In this document: positions 11,952 to 24,804 of the stretch, piece after piece
Layout: each line of letters opens with the position of its first letter
Position numbering within the stretch: position 1 is the stretch's first letter
From: Nitrospirae bacterium JdFR-86
GTDB taxonomy: Bacteria; Nitrospirota; Thermodesulfovibrionia; Thermodesulfovibrionales; JdFR-86
Assembly (NCBI GenBank): GCA_002011815.1
Contig: MTOV01000002.1
Span: 67,981-103,127 of the forward strand
Direction of reading: 5' to 3'
DNA: 35,147 nt
Notes under the pieces: generated by a model
The model's input: only the letters and a program-made list of their open reading frames with translations
Databases searched by the model: none
Told to the model about the DNA's origin: nothing
Program-made: the position numbers and the translations under genes

Positions 11952-13052
11952 TTAATCTCTGTGCAGTTCGTAGATTTTTTCGAATTCAGTGTGTACGTCC
12001 TTGAATATTCGGAGGACTTCAGGGTCAAAGTGCTCAGGCAGGGTTCTCCCGTCGCCCTCTGTTATTATTTTAAATGTTTTCTGGTGGTCAAAAGCCGGCT
12101 TGTAGGGTCTTTTGCTTCTTAAGGAGTCATACTGGTCAACAAGGTTCATGAGCCTGCCAACCAGAGGAATCTCTGCACCTTTCAGTCCCTTTGGATAACC
12201 TGTTCCGTCCCATCTTTCATGATGTGTAAGGGCTATGGTTTCAGCCATCTGCAGGTATTTTGAGACCGAACCGTGCAGTATTCTCGCACCTATTGTTGTG
12301 TGGGTCTTCATAAGGGCAAATTCCTCAGGTGTGAGTTTTCCGGGTTTCAGGAGTATGTCCGAAGGGATGCTTACCTTACCTATGTCGTGCATTGGGCTTG
12401 CATAGAATATGGTCTCCTGCTCTTCATCGGACATGCCAACGTGCTTTGCCATAAGACGACAGTAATGCCCTACCCGGCGAATATGCGCTACAGTGTCCTC
12501 GTCCTTGTATTCTGCAACCATCGTAAGCCTGTGGACTGTATCCACGTAGCCTTCTTTAAGCCGCTTCTGGGACGCCTTTAACTTCTGCAGCGCAATCTTG
12601 AGCTGGGCTGTCCTCTTTGCAACCTCCTCTTCCAGAAGCTCGTTGTGATGCTTGAGAAAGTCCTCAAACTCCTTAACCCTTAGTAGATTTTTTGCCCTTA
12701 CCATCAACTCCGTGCTGTCTATGGGCTTTGTAAGAAAATCGTCTGCACCGGTTTTAAGACCTTTGATTCTTGAGTCCCTGTCTGCAAGCGCCGTGACCAT
12801 TACAATAGGAATATGCTGTGTAGAGGCATCCTCTTTAAGTCTTCTGCACGCCTCAAAGCCGTCCATCTCAGGCATCATAATGTCAAGAAACACGAGGTCG
12901 GGTTCGTAGCTCTTTACCTTCTCTATAGCCTCAACCCCGTTGACAGCAGTCTCGTAGTGATAGCCGTATTTTCCAAGTATTGTCCCCAAAAGCTTGAGAT
13001 TCTTAGGCTCGTCATCGACTATAAGAACTTTGGCAACCTTTTTCTCTGTCAT
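11952..13052 (-). CDS. Response regulator with HD-GYP domain (c-di-GMP phosphodiesterase type)
   Basis: A 366-residue cytoplasmic protein. The receiver domain (residues 7-125) has the acidic pair DD13-14, phospho-acceptor D57 ([14 protein letters not shown]) and K109. A coiled-coil linker covers about 130-170. The HD-GYP domain (175-360) is complete, with MHDIGK (H222, D223) and [11 protein letters not shown] (GYP 285-287). HD-GYP enzymes hydrolyse c-di-GMP to pGpG or GMP, here presumably under control of the kinase encoded upstream. The gene overlaps the preceding receiver gene by ATGA, as last gene of a three-gene operon. Activity is inferred from intact motifs. Confidence 0.92.
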
Positions 13053-13414
13053 TTAACTCCAGACATCTCTTTAACGACCCTCAGGAATTCCTTCAGGTCT
13101 ATGGGTTTTGATATATAATTGTCAAACCCTTCTTCTAAGAGCCTTTCTTTATCCCCCTGCATTGCATAAGCAGTAAGTGCTATGATCGGTATGTCCTTTG
13201 TAGCAGGGTCTGACTTAATAGACCTCATTGCTGTTATTCCGTCCAGCACAGGCAGTTGCACATCCATAAGGATGAGAGCCGGCAGTTCTGCCTTTGCAGC
13301 CTTTACAGCTTCTTCACCGTTTTTTGCCTCTATTGGCTCATAACCGTTCGCCTTAAGAATATTCCTGAAAAGTTTCAGGTTTTTTTCATTGTCTTCAACA
13401 ACGAGCACCTTCAT
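13049..13414 (-). CDS. Single-domain response regulator (CheY/DivK-like receiver)
   Basis: A 121-residue stand-alone receiver: acidic pair ED7-8, phospho-acceptor D51 ([13 protein letters not shown]), conserved Thr in [12 protein letters not shown] and Lys in YISKPID. There is no output domain, so it probably relays or buffers phosphate between the adjacent histidine kinase and the receiver-HD-GYP protein. It overlaps both neighbours by 4 bp (ATGA at each junction), implying fixed stoichiometry. Confidence 0.93.
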
Positions 13415-16266
13415 TGTTTTCCCTTCAATGGTATCGTAAAAGTAAACTTACTGCCCTTTCCTGCCTCGCTTTCAACCCATATTCTTCCACCGTGAAGCTC
13501 AATAAATCTCTTTGAAAGGTGAAGACCAAGTCCTGTGCCTTCATACTTTTTCGTAAGTGCGGTTCCAAGTTGTTCAAAAGGCTGAAAGAGTTTTTTCTGG
13601 TCCTCTTTTGTGATGCCTATACCGGTGTCCCATACGGTTATCTCTACCCCCTCATCTGTCCGACGGGCTTTTATCCCAACACTGCCACCATCCGGCGTGA
13701 ACTTCAAAGCATTGCTGAGAAGGTTAAACACCACCTGCTTTATCTTTCTTTCATCCGCAACAACGTTTCCCACTTCTTTTTCCACATCAAGATGAACCTT
13801 TATGCTATGCTTAATGGCCTTCTCCCTGAACATTGACAGGCTCTCCTCAAACATCTCCATGAGATTAAACTCACTAAGTTCAAGTTCCATCCTGCCTGCC
13901 TCTATTTTTGACAGGTCAAGTATGTCATTTATCAGCGAAAGCAGATGCTTACTACTGTCAATAATATCGCCAAGGTATTCTTTCTGTTCGTCGGTCATTG
14001 GACCTGCCATTCCTTCAGCCATGAGCTGTGAAAACCCGATGATAGAGTTAAGCGGGGTTCTGAGTTCATGGGACATATTGGCAAGAAACTCTGATTTTGC
14101 CCTTGAAGCGGCCTCTGCCTGAAGCCACGCCACCTGAAGCTCGTTAGTCCTCTGCTTGACTTTTTCTTCAAGCGTCTCTGCATACTCCCTGAGCTGTCGC
14201 TCCATTTTTCTACGCTCGGTGATGTCATAAGCGTAGACTCTCAATGACTCTTTTTCAGGTATAAGATGAATGTATTCGCCAAAAACGGTATCCCCAATGC
14301 TCACTTCAGCATATATATAATCCTTTTCCCCTGACACTAAAATCCTCCTTACCTCATGCAGGTCAGGTGGCAAAAAGTCTGTCGCCTCCAGTTTCAATTC
14401 TTTCATAAGCCTTTTGACTGCTGGGTTGAAATAGACGATATTGCAGTCTTTATCGCACTCCACTACGGGATGAGGATTTTTCTCAGGGAACGATGCAAGA
14501 TACTCGATTTCTTCACGGCCAATGGCACCTAAAAGTGAGACAGCAATGATATCTGCTATGGACATATAGAGTTTTGCGTCTTCAGGCGTAAGCTTAGCAT
14601 CTACCGGCAGATAAAGCGCAAGAACGCCAAGCAACCTGCCTTTTGACTTAAGAGGAAGATTGATATGTCCGTGCGCAGTCATCCCCTCGTATCCTCTATT
14701 GTGACGTGGATCAGTAAAACAGTTCTCCGAAAAAACAGGCTCGCCTGTTTCAGCCGCTACTCCGCAGAGACACTCGCCAAAAGGCACGGTGGCTTCAAGT
14801 GCTTTGAATTCCTCATCGAAGCCTTTTGACGCAATGAGTTTAAGGGTACGCGTACTTTCATCGGCTAAGAACAATGCCGCTTTTTTTTCAAGGCTTAAAG
14901 GCTCAAGGTCAAGTATTGCGTCAAGAGCACGATTGGATGTCTCCTCCACGGAAAGAGAGTGCGCCATGGCAGAGGTTATCTTGTTGAGGACAAAAAGCTC
15001 CTCGACATGCCTCCTTTGCTCTTCATAAAGCCTTGCATTCTCCACTGCTATGGCTATGTGTACGGCAAATCTTGTAGCAATATTTTCATCTTTCTCTGAG
15101 AAGGTCTTTTCCTTGCTGCCAAAGTAAAGCCTGCCTATAACTTTATCACCGTATATGATAGGGACTCCTAAGAATGTCCTCATCTCAGGATGGCCCTTGG
15201 GGAACCCGGCAAACTGGGGATGCTGCCGTATGTCATTGACTCTCAGGACCTTGCCTTCCCTCATGAGATATCCGAGAAGTCCTTTGCCCTTGGGCAGGCC
15301 GATATTCTGTTTCAAGGTCTCGGACTCTTCAGGCCCAATACCCGACGGAATAAAGTATTTACATTCTCCGTTTTTCCCCAGTATCCCGATAGCAGCGTAG
15401 TCCGAGCCGATAAGCTTTCTCGCCGAATGCACCGCCTCCTCCAAAAGCTCCTTTATAACGAGGCGTGAGCCTATCTTCGCTGCAAGTTCATCTATTGCCT
15501 TTAGATTTCTAACTTCTGTCTCGATAGCATCAGCCATTTTGTTAAAAGACGAGGCAAGCACTCCAATTTCATCCTTTCCCTGCTCCTTTACGCGGACGCT
15601 GAAATCTCCCTTGCCCAACTCTTTCGTGACTTTTGACAATGTTATGATAGGCGTTACTATCGTGTGCCTGATGTAGATGAAACCCAAAATAGAAAAAACA
15701 AATGCACCGCCAAAAAATGCAAGAATTTCCAGCCAGTGTCTTCTAACTCTCTCCTCAGCGCTTCTCTCAAGAATGGCAACGAACTTGTCCACTCCGTTAA
15801 CATAATCCTGAACAACAAGGTTATATCTGCTTATATATGATAAGGCCTGTATCTTGTCCCCACGGCTGAACGCCTCTAATGCCTTGTCAAGATACGGTCT
15901 TATCTCCGTGCGCCATCTGAATATGAGACTGTCAAGGGTGTCTCTGCCCTCCATGTACCCGATTTTTGGTTTATACGGCGGAAGACCCCATTTAGAAGAA
16001 CCGTCTCTTAGGGCATAAAGAATTTCCTCGTAATTTGTGATAACCTGATTAATTTCTTCTGGAGACTTCCTGTCTTCGATAAGAGTGTTTAAATGGAATG
16101 ATATCTCGAATGCCCTCATCCTCTCCGAGCCGGCAAGATTAATCCTTCTTGCTTCATATCTCATGCCCTGAGTAAAATCAAATGTCAGATAGAGAAACCC
16201 AGCAAGGACAAAAAACATGAAAAGAACAACGAAGAAAACCTTCGTCCCAATGGATCTCACATTCAT
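13411..16266 (-). CDS. Membrane sensor histidine kinase with PilJ-type sensor, HAMP, two GAF and a PAS domain
   Basis: A 951-residue inner-membrane kinase. TM1 spans about 9-30. The periplasmic helical region begins [15 protein letters not shown], a PilJ/NarX-like type IV pilus/nitrate sensor signature. TM2 spans about 180-202, then HAMP to about 255. Two GAF domains follow (roughly 260-415 and 425-580), then a PAS segment (about 585-690) and a coiled coil. HisKA has phospho-acceptor H733 in [12 protein letters not shown]. HATPase_c contains the N-box [15 protein letters not shown] and [12 protein letters not shown]. There is no receiver, so phosphate would pass to the two receiver proteins encoded next. 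The ligand cannot be deduced from the sequence. Confidence 0.93.
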
Positions 16267-20053: not shown

Positions 20054-20132
<79 letters not shown>

Positions 20133-20142
20133 GGAAACTGAT

Positions 20143-20219
20143 GCGCCAGTAGCTCAGTTGGATAGAGCAGCTGCCTTCTAAGCAGCGGGTCAGGGGTTCG
20201 AATCCTCTCTGGCGCGCCA
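20143..20219 (+). tRNA. tRNA-Arg (anticodon TCT)
   Basis: Complete cloverleaf: acceptor GCGCCAG pairs with CTGGCGC, anticodon stem GCTGC/GCAGC with loop CTTCTAA, discriminator G and encoded CCA at 20217-20219. Decodes AGA/AGG. Confidence 0.98.
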
Positions 20220-20250
20220 AACAATTTAAGACCTTTAAAAAGTTTTAAGT

Positions 20251-20256
20251 TATAAT
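20251..20256 (+). promoter_or_regulatory. Isolated -10-like box between tRNA-Arg and tRNA-His
   Basis: A perfect TATAAT lies in the 69 bp gap before tRNA-His, the only long gap in the cluster. No good -35 hexamer is visible, so an internal promoter is possible but weakly supported. Confidence 0.3.
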
Positions 20257-20288
20257 AGTAGGGGTTAAGGACACAGTCCTTAGCTGAC

Positions 20289-20365
20289 GGTGGGTGTAGC
20301 TCAATGGTTAGAGCACTGGACTGTGGCTCCAGGTGTTGTGGGTTCGAGTCCCATCACCCACCCCA
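20289..20365 (+). tRNA. tRNA-His (anticodon GTG)
   Basis: Complete cloverleaf including the extra G at -1 (20289) that pairs with discriminator C (20362): acceptor GTGGGTG/CACCCAC, anticodon stem CTGGA/TCCAG with loop CTGTGGC, encoded CCA at 20363-20365. Confidence 0.98.
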
Positions 20366-20391
20366 AGAACAAGGGGTGGAAGTAGAGATAT

Positions 20392-20465
20392 GCGCCTGTA
20401 GCTCAGCGGACTAGAGCATCGGCCTCCGGAGCCGAGGGTCGGAGGTTCGAATCCTCTCAGGCGCG
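20392..20465 (+). tRNA. tRNA-Arg (anticodon CCG), CCA not encoded
   Basis: Acceptor GCGCCTG pairs with CAGGCGC, anticodon stem TCGGC/GCCGA with loop CTCCGGA, T-arm GAGGTTCGAATCCTC, discriminator G at 20465. The next bases are TTA rather than CCA, so this tRNA alone in the window depends on CCA addition after transcription. Confidence 0.95.
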
Positions 20466-20486
20466 TTATACTTGCACGGGATATAC

Positions 20487-20562
<76 letters not shown>

Positions 20563-20570
20563 GAAAAATC

Positions 20571-20601
20571 AAGGGTTACGGCAAACCCGTAACCCTTTTT
20601 T
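20571..20601 (+). terminator. Intrinsic terminator of the tRNA cluster
   Basis: AAGGGTTACGG (20571-20581), loop CAAAC, CCGTAACCCTT (20587-20597), a perfect 11 bp stem running into a T tract to 20601. It lies 8 bases after tRNA-Lys. Confidence 0.93.
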
Positions 20602-20688: not shown

Positions 20689-20732
20689 AACCCGTCTCAT
20701 ATTTTAGAGATATAGCAGTGGGGTTTTTCGTA

Positions 20733-22409
20733 ATGCCTTTTAAATCCATTCCTGAGCAGAACTTCGTAAACAGAGACGCAGAGCTCAGTTATCTAAAACG
20801 CCTGATTGACGTAAAAGACAGCGCCATCGTAAATAACGTACTCCTCGAAGGAACAAGAGGCATCGGCAAAACAGAACTCCTAAAGCAACTATACCGCAGC
20901 CTCTTCTGGCAAGGAAAGAACGTCATACCATTCTACTATTCCTTTCAAAGAGCAACCCTTAAAGTCGCTTATTTTGCAAAAGATTACTTCACACGGTTTG
21001 TCAGACAATACCTTGCATTTTTAAAGAAAGACCCTTCGATTATAGACAACATGAGCATCCCCCTGACAAAACTGATTCCATTGTTCTCCACACTTAAACT
21101 CACATGGATGATAGAACTTATCGAAGACTTTCAGGAGCATATAAAAGACGGTGATCTTCACGAACAGCTGCTTGGTGCGATTTCGATTCCTGCGGCTGTT
21201 GCAGGCAAAAGCGGAAATCCGGTGCTTGTCATGCTTGATGATTTTCATCTTGCTACACAACTATATGAGACACATCCAGGAGACGTTCCCGGACTCATAA
21301 GCCTTTTTGAACGCTCCATGACGTCAACCACTTCTCCGCACATATTGACCGGCTCTCCGGAAGGCGCTCTTGAAATGATTTTCACTGACGACTCGTTCAG
21401 AGGAAAAGCCGAAAGAATGATACTCAGGGCAATGCCTGAGGACGCTGCTTTCTCCATGTTCAGGTCTTTATGTGCTGCATTTGGAATAACAGTCCGTGAT
21501 GAATGCAGGGAATTTATGAAATTTCTCGGTGGCAACCCCCTCTACATTAAGAATATGGCAAAGGCCCTGTGGAAAATGCAACGTAAGGAAGCCTCTCTGA
21601 AAGACCTCTGGGAATGCTACAGTTACGAGGTCTCTGATGGAGAAACTGCATTTTACTGGTCATCAATATTCAGAGGGTTTCTAACAGACCTGCAACAGCG
21701 CAGAATCGCCATCGAACTCCTCATGCACTCAATCGAATCACACTGCGAAGTACGCAATCTCGAAATACTCTCAAAGGCTTTAGGCATACCTGTGCCTTCA
21801 CTGAAGTCCGTGCTGGATGCCCTGCAAATATCAGGAATAATACAGACTACAGGAAGCATCCGACCCGTAAGAGACAACATCCTGCAGGACTTTATAAGAA
21901 ATCTCTATCTGCGAGAGGTGGAAGAAAGAGATCCGGAAAAAATAAGAAAACTGATAGAGTCAAGATATCAGCTCCAGAATAATGCAACCTCATGCTTTGA
22001 AATGACCATCCCAATGACAGCAGATGCAGAACTCGTTGCAGCAAAAGCAATCGAACAGATTGGAAAAAACATAAGTCTGAAACCACTCGTGATAACCCAG
22101 CTTCAGCTGGCGATTATAGAGGCTTGCATCAATGCCATGGAACACAGTGGAAGCTACGACAAAAAGGTTCTTCTTAAATTCACTGTAAACCCCGAAAGAA
22201 TCGAGATTGCCATAGAAACTCCAGGCAAACGGTTCGACCCTGACACTGTAAAAGAGCCAACAATAGAGGAAAAACTTCATTCCGAGCACAAAAGAGGTTG
22301 GGGACTAAAACTCATGCGTGAAGTCATGGACGATGTAAAGGTCGAAACAATAGGAGACAGGACAAGAGTGGTGCTTATAAAAAACATTAAATCCGAGGTG
22401 ATAAATTGA
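20733..22409 (+). CDS. STAND/AAA-type ATPase fused to an RsbW-like HATPase (anti-sigma/serine kinase) domain
   Basis: About 558 residues counted from ATG 20733; a GTG at 20718 would add five. The N-terminal part (1-280) is a STAND-like P-loop ATPase: FVNRDAELSYLKR, Walker A GTRGIGKTE (40-48), Walker B VLVMLDD (D169, D170), sensor-like ILTGSPEG and GGNPLYIKNMAKAL. A winged-helix-like region (about 315-385) follows. The C-terminus (about 425-550) is a GHKL domain of RsbW type, with EACINAMEHSG (N-box, 463-473) and RGWGLKLMREVMDDV. The usual D.G.GFDP block reads ETPGKRFDP, with Glu for Asp. I infer an ATPase-gated kinase or switch protein acting on the STAS protein encoded next, whose TTG start overlaps this stop. 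No membrane segment is seen. Confidence 0.85.
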   Translation: MPFKSIPEQNFVNRDAELSYLKRLIDVKDSAIVNNVLLEGTRGIGKTELLKQLYRSLFWQGKNVIPFYYSFQRATLKVAYFAKDYFTRFVRQYLAFLKKDPSIIDNMSIPLTKLIPLFSTLKLTWMIELIEDFQEHIKDGDLHEQLLGAISIPAAVAGKSGNPVLVMLDDFHLATQLYETHPGDVPGLISLFERSMTSTTSPHILTGSPEGALEMIFTDDSFRGKAERMILRAMPEDAAFSMFRSLCAAFGITVRDECREFMKFLGGNPLYIKNMAKALWKMQRKEASLKDLWECYSYEVSDGETAFYWSSIFRGFLTDLQQRRIAIELLMHSIESHCEVRNLEILSKALGIPVPSLKSVLDALQISGIIQTTGSIRPVRDNILQDFIRNLYLREVEERDPEKIRKLIESRYQLQNNATSCFEMTIPMTADAELVAAKAIEQIGKNISLKPLVITQLQLAIIEACINAMEHSGSYDKKVLLKFTVNPERIEIAIETPGKRFDPDTVKEPTIEEKLHSEHKRGWGLKLMREVMDDVKVETIGDRTRVVLIKNIKSEVIN

Positions 22410-22765
22410 AAAGTTTCATGGTAGTTTCAAAGTCCCTTGAGGATGTCGCTGTGATTTATCCTCAGGGCTATTTAAACAACCTCGTGGGAGAAAGTCTTGA
22501 AAAAGAATGCAATGCCTGCATCGGAAAAGGAATAAAAAAGATTGTGCTCGACTTCAGCAAAACAAAGTTCATCAACAGCATAGGCATCTCCATACTGCTG
22601 AGTATTATCGAAAAACTCAAAAAGCATAATGGCATACTGTGCTTTACAAGCTTGAATAAAATGCATGAGGAAATTTTTGAAATGCTGGGCATTACAAAGT
22701 ATGCCCTCGTCTTCAGAAACGAAGACGAAGCACTAAAACACTTCAGGGTGGCGGTAAAAGAATGA
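22406..22765 (+). CDS. STAS-domain anti-anti-sigma factor (RsbV/SpoIIAA-like)
   Basis: A 119-residue STAS protein. The conserved loop reads KIVLDFSKTKFINSIGISIL, with Ser58 at the place of the phospho-acceptor serine of SpoIIAA/RsbV (DSSGLG in the classical family). The start is TTG at 22406, supported by GAGGTG five bases upstream and overlapping the ATPase-kinase stop. The stop overlaps the next ATG (ATGA). In partner switching, the unphosphorylated STAS protein binds the RsbW-like kinase and releases its target; here the target is unknown because no sigma factor is present. The variant loop (INS rather than DSS) is notable. Confidence 0.9.
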   Translation: MKSFMVVSKSLEDVAVIYPQGYLNNLVGESLEKECNACIGKGIKKIVLDFSKTKFINSIGISILLSIIEKLKKHNGILCFTSLNKMHEEIFEMLGITKYALVFRNEDEALKHFRVAVKE

Positions 22766-23985
22766 GTCTGGAACTTAAAAGAATTCTTTACAACATATCT
22801 GCACTGGCAGACCTTGGCCAGGAAGTCACATCCAAAAAGAACTTCAATGAAAAGATACGCTCTGTGCTTTATGTGATAATGGGGACATTCCTTGCTGTCA
22901 AAGGAGCGATATTTTCTTATGAAAAAGACAAAAAGGAGATAGTCCCTATAGTGATGAAAGGCTTTGACAGCGCGTTTCCTTCAAGACTTACAATTGATCT
23001 GGCGCATATAGAGTCAATGAAAAAGAATGAGGCATATCGCCTTGCAGAAGACGGCAACCCTGTGGCTTCCGACTTATTGCTGAGCCAGCTGTCTCATGCC
23101 GGTGTAGAGATATTCGTGCCTCTTTGGACAAGAGATGAGCTCATAGGCGCCCTTGCCCTGAGCAGTAAATTCACAGCCGAGCCTTACAGCACTGAGGATT
23201 TCGAGCTCCTGAAGGTAATAGCCAACCAGATAGCCATAACCCTTCACAACCACACCCTTTTTATGGATCTCTCCGCACAACTTGAAGAAAACCAGAAACT
23301 CTATCAGGAAATGCGTCTCATATACCATGATACAATCCAGGCTTTTGCTGCTGCTATCGATGCAAAAGACGTTTACACAAAGAACCATTCATACAGGGTG
23401 GCAAAATACGTAGTTGCAATAGCAAGAGAACTCGGATGGGATGAATCTGACATCGAGGGCATATATATCGCAGGACTCCTGCACGACGTCGGAAAGATAA
23501 TACTGCGTGACGAACTTTTAAACAAAAAGAGTCCTCTTACCAAAGAGGAGATTATGGAAATAAAAAGACATCCAAGCCTCTCATACAACATAATCTCCAA
23601 GATTAAGTTTCCATGGAAGGATGTCGTGACCATAGTAAGGCATCACCATGAAAGACCCGACGGCAGTGGATACCCTGATGCACTGAAAGGCGAAGAACTC
23701 AGCGATGGCGCAAAGATTCTGACCCTTGCTGACGCCTTTGACGCCATGACCACTGACAGACCTTACAGAAGCAAGTTAGACCTCAAATCAGCAATCGAAG
23801 AGTTGAGAAACTGCCTTGGTACACAGTTCGACCCGAAAATAATGGGCGCCTTCTGCAGGGTGCTCGAAAAAGAGATAAAAGGCGAACTGCCTGAACCCAA
23901 CATCCTGCCACATCTCGACGACAACTTTGACCCATCTATAATCACCTCACTGCTTGAGGCTACAATAAAAGAACTGTCAGTATAG
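22762..23985 (+). CDS. GAF-HD-GYP protein (c-di-GMP phosphodiesterase type)
   Basis: A 407-residue cytoplasmic protein. Residues about 20-165 form a GAF-like sensor (ending LLKVIANQIAITLHNHTLF). After a short coiled coil comes a complete HD-GYP domain (195-375): GLLHDVGKI (H241, D242), the HHHERPDGSGYPDALKG block (GYP 303-305), TLADAFDAMTTDRPYR. All metal-ligand motifs are intact, so it likely hydrolyses c-di-GMP. It overlaps the STAS gene by ATGA, so the partner-switching proteins and this enzyme are produced together. I infer that the STAS/kinase pair may control this enzyme instead of a sigma factor. Confidence 0.92.
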   Translation: MSLELKRILYNISALADLGQEVTSKKNFNEKIRSVLYVIMGTFLAVKGAIFSYEKDKKEIVPIVMKGFDSAFPSRLTIDLAHIESMKKNEAYRLAEDGNPVASDLLLSQLSHAGVEIFVPLWTRDELIGALALSSKFTAEPYSTEDFELLKVIANQIAITLHNHTLFMDLSAQLEENQKLYQEMRLIYHDTIQAFAAAIDAKDVYTKNHSYRVAKYVVAIARELGWDESDIEGIYIAGLLHDVGKIILRDELLNKKSPLTKEEIMEIKRHPSLSYNIISKIKFPWKDVVTIVRHHHERPDGSGYPDALKGEELSDGAKILTLADAFDAMTTDRPYRSKLDLKSAIEELRNCLGTQFDPKIMGAFCRVLEKEIKGELPEPNILPHLDDNFDPSIITSLLEATIKELSV

Positions 23986-24005
23986 AAAGACACCAGCCGC
24001 CTTTC

Positions 24006-24032
24006 TTGACATTTGCAACCCAGAGTTATATC
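24006..24032 (+). promoter_or_regulatory. Candidate promoter directly before the receiver-PilZ gene
   Basis: Perfect TTGACA (24006-24011), 15 bp spacer (shorter than usual), TATATC (24027-24032). Transcription would start about at the ATG (24040), implying a leaderless message; read-through from the HD-GYP gene is also possible. Confidence 0.4.
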
Positions 24033-24039
24033 CTGAACC

Positions 24040-24804
24040 ATGGGAGATAAGCTGATAAAAGTCCTTATTGCGGACGGCAGTACAGCCTTCATCATGTATA
24101 TCTCCATTGTTCTTCAGAGAATGGGCATTGATAAAATCATCCCTGCTGAAAGCGGAGTAGAAGCACTAAAACTTCTGAAGATACTAACACCGGACGTTGT
24201 GATGCTCGATATACTCATGCCTCTAATGGATGGTATAACAGCCCTGAAATACATTAAAGCCGACGAGCAGACTTCAGGTATACCTGTAATTCTGATTTCA
24301 ACCAAACACGACAAGGAATCAAGGGAAGAGTGCGAAAGACTTGGATGCTCCGGCTATCTGACCAAACCTGTAAATATAACCGAATTACATAAAACTCTCC
24401 AAAACTGCATCACATTTACTGGAGGCAAAAAACGGAAATTTCTGAGAACCTCATTCAACAGGAAAGTAGTGCTGAATTACAACGGCATATTAAAGGAGTT
24501 CTTTGCCGTAACTCTTTCTGAAGGGGGAATATTCATCAGGAAAAAAGACCCCTTGCCTGTTGGATCAGAAGTAGAGGTCATCCTGCCCCTAAAGGATAAA
24601 GAACTTTCTCTGAACGGCACGGTAATCTATCAAAAGGGTCTTTTCGGAGATATATTCAGGATTCCGCCTGGCATGGCAATAGAATTCAAAGACATGACTG
24701 CTGAAGAGTCAACAACACTCAGGAACCATATAATAGAACTCCTCACCAAGGATATCCTCGAAGAACAGGACGAACCCATTATCACAATAGACAATAACTT
24801 CTGA
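24040..24804 (+). CDS. Response regulator with PilZ domain
   Basis: A 254-residue protein. The receiver domain (residues 5-122) has phospho-acceptor D57 (VVMLDILMPLMDG) and K109 in YLTKPVN. The PilZ domain (about 130-235) resembles the PilZ family found with gliding and twitching motility proteins. R132xxxR136 is present, but the second c-di-GMP motif (D/N)xSxxG reads TLSEGG (158-163), with Thr for Asp/Asn. c-di-GMP binding is therefore plausible but uncertain. No Shine-Dalgarno precedes the ATG. It follows the HD-GYP gene by 54 bp, and its stop is 4 bp from the convergent rnr stop. Confidence 0.85.
   Translation: MGDKLIKVLIADGSTAFIMYISIVLQRMGIDKIIPAESGVEALKLLKILTPDVVMLDILMPLMDGITALKYIKADEQTSGIPVILISTKHDKESREECERLGCSGYLTKPVNITELHKTLQNCITFTGGKKRKFLRTSFNRKVVLNYNGILKEFFAVTLSEGGIFIRKKDPLPVGSEVEVILPLKDKELSLNGTVIYQKGLFGDIFRIPPGMAIEFKDMTAEESTTLRNHIIELLTKDILEEQDEPIITIDNNF

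Follow-up and report, generated by a model that had tools for sequence, protein, structure and literature searches.

A probable STAS partner switch without a sigma factor that may regulate an HD-GYP cyclic diguanylate phosphodiesterase in Nitrospirae bacterium JdFR-86

Gene content of the locus

A 35,147-nucleotide stretch of the Nitrospirae bacterium JdFR-86 genome (contig MTOV01000002.1, positions 67,981 to 103,127; hereafter, the window) contains four genes on the + strand just 3' of a cluster of five tRNA genes. Three of them, encoding a fusion of an ATPase to an RsbW-like GHKL domain, a STAS domain protein and a GAF-HD-GYP protein, appear to constitute a partner switch that has no sigma factor and that governs how active an HD-GYP phosphodiesterase of cyclic diguanylate (c-di-GMP) is, a reading to which we give a probability of about 0.6. 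The module looks like a switch of sporulation or stress control that has been rebuilt to regulate a c-di-GMP-destroying enzyme. A preliminary description of the window had placed the four genes, with overlaps of 4 bp between the ATPase-GHKL and STAS genes and between the STAS and GAF-HD-GYP genes; all of these coordinates were right on re-examination, and the domains that it had named were borne out by Pfam in all four genes and by fold prediction in the first.

The first gene (20733..22409, +) encodes a fusion protein of 558 amino acids, with a possible alternative in-frame GTG start at 20718 (+). Pfam recognizes ATPase_2 (3e-11) and AAA_16 over residues 11-274, and HATPase_c_2 (1.6e-17) over residues 436-550. 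The N-terminal part has each of the motifs of a STAND/MNS-type ATPase of the ATPase_2 family: a Walker A motif (GTRGIGKT, 20850..20873, +) of which K46 is found in 57 of 58 homologues, a Walker B residue, D169, found in all 58, and a GGNP-type motif of which P269 is kept throughout the homologue set A4. Thus, the Walker A and D169 Walker B motifs named in the preliminary description are both present and conserved. An AlphaFold2 model of the fusion protein, built from an alignment of 33 homologues, was of usable quality (pLDDT 84, pTM 0.70). Compared with PDB by Foldseek, the modelled N-terminal part resembles the archaeal ATPase 2qen as well as Cdc6/Orc and NLR folds, and the modelled C-terminal part matches RsbW of the RsbV/RsbW complex (6m36/6m37, TMt 0.83-0.91) and also SpoIIAB (1tid), so that the HATPase_c_2 and Foldseek results both assign the GHKL domain to the RsbW/SpoIIAB fold.

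The glutamate and asparagine of the N box and the G2 box of partner-switch kinases are present in the GHKL domain. The N box (EACINAMEHS, 22119..22148, +) has E463 and N467, which are conserved in all 36 STAS-bearing homologues, and is lost in a clade of 19 members that have neither STAS nor HD-GYP; the G2 box (RGWG, 22293..22304, +) is found in nearly all homologues. In GHKL ATPases, the N-box glutamate serves as a base and the asparagine as a magnesium ligand, and an aspartate of the G1 region bonds the N6 amine of adenine (PMC5811534). The G1 box of the fusion protein (ETPGKRF, 22215..22235, +) is atypical, having threonine in place of the adenine-anchoring aspartate after the conserved Glu495, and thus lacks the DxG sequence of RsbW/SpoIIAB-type partner switches. 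This aspartate is kept in none of 35 fused kinases, which have serine, asparagine or threonine instead, nearly always preceded by an invariant glutamate, whereas it is kept in all 54 stand-alone relatives. Its loss from the fused kinases was probably a single ancestral change rather than 35 independent ones.

The second gene (22406..22765, +), which has a TTG start and occupies an equivalent position in 36 homologous loci, encodes a protein of 119 amino acids with STAS (Pfam, 4e-14) as its sole domain. Ser58, which the preliminary description had named, is within the motif NSIG (codon at 22577..22579, +) and lines up with the serine that is phosphorylated in SpoIIAA (Ser58); the alternative that it is a misplaced phospho-site was ruled out by this alignment. 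Position 58 is serine in 31 of 33 STAS proteins and threonine in the other two, as expected of a candidate phospho-acceptor. The residue before it is asparagine rather than aspartate in all 33; neither this Asn57 nor the absence of aspartate from the G1 box had been noticed before. The substitution of Asn for Asp57 was rejected as the mark of a dead STAS protein because the STAS proteins of stand-alone, PP2C-linked relatives share the NSIG motif.

The third gene (22762..23985, +) encodes a predicted GAF-HD-GYP c-di-GMP phosphodiesterase, in which Pfam recognizes GAF and HD_5 (3e-38); the GAF domain extends over residues 36-163 approximately and the HD-GYP domain over residues 195-360. The closest solved structure is that of the GAF-HD-GYP protein PmGH (4mcw), which was matched by sequence over residues 17-373 (E 2e-48). 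The catalytic residues H209, H241, D242, K245, H270, H295, H296, E297, the GYP motif and D324 are invariant in 31 of 31 homologues. The metal-binding and GYP residues, in a protein of GAF-HD-GYP architecture, predict an enzyme that hydrolyzes c-di-GMP.

Conservation of the module among relatives

Homologues were sought in named genomes and in 396 Nitrospirota genomes (43 positive), and domains at the loci of relatives were placed by tblastn; almost all of the loci found are from metagenome-assembled genomes. Full-length homologues of the fusion protein are present in Nitrospirota, Syntrophia-type Deltaproteobacteria and Sumerlaeota, and in these groups the order ATPase-kinase, STAS, GAF-HD-GYP is found in 34 loci plus two that are incomplete. 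An Acidobacteriota locus (L095) also has the module set, with its kinase gene cut by the start of the contig. Gene order in the module is thus conserved in four phyla or more, even where identity falls to about 30%. Genes are overlapping or no more than 25 bp apart at 32 of 33 kinase-STAS junctions and at 32 of 32 STAS-HD-GYP junctions. At six loci (L040, L041, L068, L083, L089 and L121), tblastn located STAS and HD-GYP sequences that are overlapped by longer antisense open reading frames. One locus (L072) is labelled Nitrospinota, a label that may be a binning error because the locus is nearly identical to Nitrospirota loci. The Sumerlaeota fusion protein (L090) is longer, at 783 amino acids, with about 200 additional residues between the ATPase and the kinase, and it is within this extra stretch that the Acidobacteriota fragment aligns to it. 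A relative with a 6-Mb genome (G057; L045 and L046) has at least five ATPase_2 paralogues that have no kinase domain.

In many relatives, of the more divergent lineages, the gene directly upstream of the module encodes a PocR-GAF-GGDEF protein, and nearly all of these proteins have kept the GG(D/E)EF motif intact. No full-length counterpart of this protein was found in the JdFR-86 genome. The link of the module to c-di-GMP is firm because so many relatives have this active-type cyclase just upstream.

Patterns of retention and loss were counted in 56 loci after duplicates and incomplete loci had been taken out. All 36 loci in which the GHKL domain retains its N-box and G2 residues also have STAS, and 34 of them have HD-GYP, which is truncated in one of the remaining two (L039, of genome G045) and beyond the end of the contig in the other (L066). 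The other 20 loci have lost the GHKL motifs, and none of them has STAS or HD-GYP; the ATPase motifs are kept at these 20 loci, and 19 of them have the PocR-GGDEF neighbour. A tree built from the ATPase domain only shows two independent losses, one in a clade of 19 and the other in a Nitrospira locus (L057), which no longer has a G2 box. This joint retention or loss is the best evidence that the GHKL domain, the STAS protein and the HD-GYP enzyme may work as one unit, and the GHKL-decayed loci are likewise the best evidence for a putative further link of the ATPase to the cyclase.

The decayed loci have contents of their own. A two-gene variant consisting of PocR-GAF-GGDEF and an ATPase with a decayed GHKL domain was observed at L080, L081, L084, L087, L088, L178-L188 and L190-L192, and its ATPase, whose motifs are intact, may therefore act alone on the cyclase. 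In the Nitrospira locus (L057:9748-12679), without STAS and HD-GYP, the homologue is followed instead by a HAMP histidine kinase and a receiver-containing protein.

Phosphatases, stand-alone relatives and sigma factors

No PP2C phosphatase was found in the JdFR-86 genome with the Pfam models PF07228 (SpoIIE), PF13672 and PF00481, so that the SpoIIE/RsbU component of an RsbW/SpoIIAB-type partner switch is missing as judged by these three models; another module-bearing genome (G002) likewise has no match to any of them. At six Syntrophia-type loci (L059, L061, L062, L065, L069 and L085), a PrpC-like PP2C gene does lie beside the module, in either of two positions and in the opposite orientation, and PP2C genes are present in G045 and G046.

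Many stand-alone relatives of the kinase, mostly in Acidobacteriota, belong to cassettes with the order kinase, STAS, GAF-SpoIIE phosphatase (L092, L104, L117 and others), the SpoIIE assignment being based on two queries and on Pfam scans of four proteins. The third position is thus occupied by GAF-SpoIIE in the stand-alone cassettes and by GAF-HD-GYP in the module, and the NSIG motif is shared. The Acidobacteriota cassette of RsbW-type kinase, NSIG-type STAS and GAF-SpoIIE (L092, L097, L100-L122) is located after a gene for a GAF sigma-54 activator in the cases examined.

The observation in the preliminary description that no sigma factor lies beside the switch can be extended to relatives: no alternative sigma factor gene adjoins the module in the window or at any other module locus, the only sigma factor gene in the vicinity being the rpoD of L042/L043 at a distance of about 7-8 kb. 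A linked target sigma factor is therefore lacking. The JdFR-86 genome has three sigma-70-type genes, one of them FliA-like (G000:C16).

Neighbouring genes

The fourth gene (24040..24804, +) encodes a protein with Response_reg and PilZ domains (Pfam). It starts 54 bp past the GAF-HD-GYP gene, and a promoter-like sequence (TTGACA-17-TATCCT, 24006-24034, +), identified by its match to consensus only, ends a few bases before its ATG; this gap and this site had not been remarked upon. The acidic pocket of its receiver domain reads IADGS, with glycine where the second acidic residue is usual. In the preliminary description, this gene was a component of the system, and a search for a conserved neighbourhood of the four domains was suggested. 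The part comprising ATPase-kinase, STAS and GAF-HD-GYP is indeed conserved, but REC-PilZ was found beside the module in none of the relatives, not even in the 64%-identical locus L160, so we regard it as a neighbour particular to the window and reject it as a fourth component.

The tRNA genes upstream of the module (window 20054-20597, +) are those for Pro, Arg, His, Arg and Lys, and between them and the first gene, immediately before the module, is a terminator-like hairpin. Elsewhere in the window (11952-16266, -) is a separate two-component set that consists of a PilJ/HAMP/GAF-GAF histidine kinase, a lone receiver and a REC-HD-GYP protein; the window therefore encodes two HD-GYP enzymes.

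Proposed mechanism and alternative explanations

The output of the conserved unit of kinase-like protein, STAS protein and HD-GYP enzyme is likely to be c-di-GMP, because the unit is conserved, has no alternative sigma factor nearby and often adjoins a diguanylate cyclase. In the proposed mechanism, the N-terminal STAND-type ATPase would sense a signal and change the state of the RsbW-like GHKL domain to which it is fused, and the latter would accordingly bind the STAS protein or let it go. By alternating between this domain and the GAF-HD-GYP enzyme, the STAS protein would increase or decrease the breakdown of c-di-GMP; the upstream PocR-GAF-GGDEF cyclase of many relatives would be the opposing arm. 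We infer the binding of the STAS protein to the HD-GYP protein, the direction of control and the nature of the signal, and the earlier idea that the ATPase is a signal-dependent clamp on the kinase is a guess.

Several observations weigh against this reading. The pattern of decay represents two evolutionary events, not 20. In G045, all that is left of the HD-GYP gene is about 84 bp of its GAF part, with ATPase-kinase and STAS retained; therefore, the ATPase-kinase/STAS pair can outlive the HD-GYP enzyme. The change in the G1 box could leave the GHKL domain unable to bind ATP. The partial correlation of pairwise distances between STAS and GAF (0.65) was the strongest signal between genes, but it is weak evidence and is given little weight because the same measure gave 0.0 for the GAF and HD-GYP domains of one chain.

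In a canonical cycle, the GHKL kinase would phosphorylate Ser58 with ATP, an unrecognized or unlinked phosphatase would reverse this, and only one form of the STAS protein, unphosphorylated or phosphorylated, would act on the HD-GYP enzyme; such an alternative overlaps the sigma-less switch preferred here, differing from it in chemistry. The invariance of the N-box glutamate and asparagine and of Ser/Thr58, the retention of the G2 box, the SpoIIE phosphatases of stand-alone relatives with NSIG-type STAS proteins, the PrpC-like PP2C genes adjoining six Syntrophia-type modules and the PP2C genes elsewhere in several relatives are all consistent with it, yet it is doubtful because the G1 aspartate that contacts adenine (PMC5811534) has been lost from 35 of 35 fused kinases, though not from any of 54 stand-alone ones, and because PP2C was not found in the JdFR-86 genome or, by the same three models, in G002. 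The conserved acceptor and N box thus speak for phosphorylation of Ser58, and the missing aspartate and missing PP2C speak against it. The preliminary suggestion that a switch gates the HD-GYP enzyme thus stands as regards the conserved kinase-like/STAS/HD-GYP unit, but not as regards an RsbW-type cycle. A tentative version of the sigma-less switch dispenses with the classical cycle of ATP-dependent kinase and PP2C: the GHKL domain, having no adenine anchor, would be a STAS-binding module that is moved by the STAND ATPase and sets c-di-GMP through the HD-GYP enzyme, opposed in relatives by the cyclase of the operon.

Other explanations assign the HD-GYP protein a different place. It might be an input, either acting on phospho-STAS as a replacement for GAF-SpoIIE or reporting the level of c-di-GMP, with the ATPase-kinase driving some other output. 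The substitution of GAF-HD-GYP for GAF-SpoIIE in the third position, with no PP2C found in the JdFR-86 genome, fits this idea, and HD proteins are metal-dependent phosphohydrolases; however, we know of no HD-GYP protein phosphatase, the complete c-di-GMP signature of HD-GYP is invariant, the closest solved structure is that of the c-di-GMP enzyme PmGH, and in many relatives a cyclase is in the same operon, all of which make an input role unlikely. Somewhat less probable still is an accessory role for HD-GYP in a switch that controls a sigma factor encoded elsewhere, such as the FliA-like one. The GHKL domain does have an anti-sigma factor fold and the genome has sigma factors to offer, but none of the relatives has an alternative sigma gene beside the module, the retention and loss of STAS and HD-GYP coincide with those of the kinase motifs, and the recurring neighbours are c-di-GMP enzymes rather than transcription regulators. 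A chance or housekeeping operon of genes without functional contact, which would fit in that the evidence for the unit is one of adjacency and co-inheritance, is very improbable in view of the conservation of gene order across four or more phyla to about 30% identity, the gene overlaps and the two independent joint losses.

Comparison with known systems

The module resembles the RsbW/RsbV/RsbU and SpoIIAB/SpoIIAA/SpoIIE systems in having a GHKL domain of the RsbW/SpoIIAB fold, a small STAS protein with an acceptor serine, and adjacent, overlapping genes. Unlike those switches, it has a kinase fused to a STAND ATPase and devoid of the G1 aspartate, an HD-GYP enzyme in the third position, no sigma factor and, in this genome, no PP2C. 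PmGH of Persephonella marina is similar to the third protein in architecture and catalytic motif over residues 17-373; to our knowledge, no STAS or kinase genes are linked to it.

There are precedents for STAS proteins that control c-di-GMP enzymes. In the HsbR-HsbA-HsbD system of Pseudomonas aeruginosa, the STAS anti-anti-sigma factor HsbA binds the c-di-GMP enzyme HsbD in a serine-dependent manner (PMC5085249), but HsbD is a cyclase rather than an HD-GYP phosphodiesterase, the kinase/phosphatase is of another kind, and the system is tied to FlgM. In the SiaC-SiaD pair of P. aeruginosa and the BgrV-BgrR pair of Sinorhizobium meliloti, a STAS or STAS-like protein controlled by a kinase and phosphatase sets the activity of a diguanylate cyclase (PMC8457831); both differ from the module in having a cyclase as output and no described fusion to a STAND ATPase, and SiaABCD also includes a PP2C phosphatase. 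The CapK-CapS and VapK-VapS-VapC systems are pairs of GHKL kinase and STAS protein that have been freed from sigma factors, with an extra domain gating the kinase (PMC13373217), but their outputs are repressors or toxins, their signal is single-stranded DNA, and c-di-GMP is not involved. In the literature searched, which excludes subscription papers and preprints, no paper was found on a STAS switch that acts on an HD-GYP enzyme, and HD-GYP in combination with anti-anti-sigma yielded only HsbD-type and unrelated papers. STAS switches on c-di-GMP synthesis are few, and within the same literature none was found that acts on c-di-GMP breakdown.

The module offers a natural comparison set, composed of relatives that have the full unit, relatives in which the kinase motifs, STAS and HD-GYP have disappeared jointly and the cyclase and ATPase persist, and stand-alone kinases that are accompanied by PP2C. 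Two questions become testable with it: whether a partner switch can still operate when its GHKL domain has no adenine-binding aspartate, and what role a STAND ATPase has when fused to a partner-switch domain.

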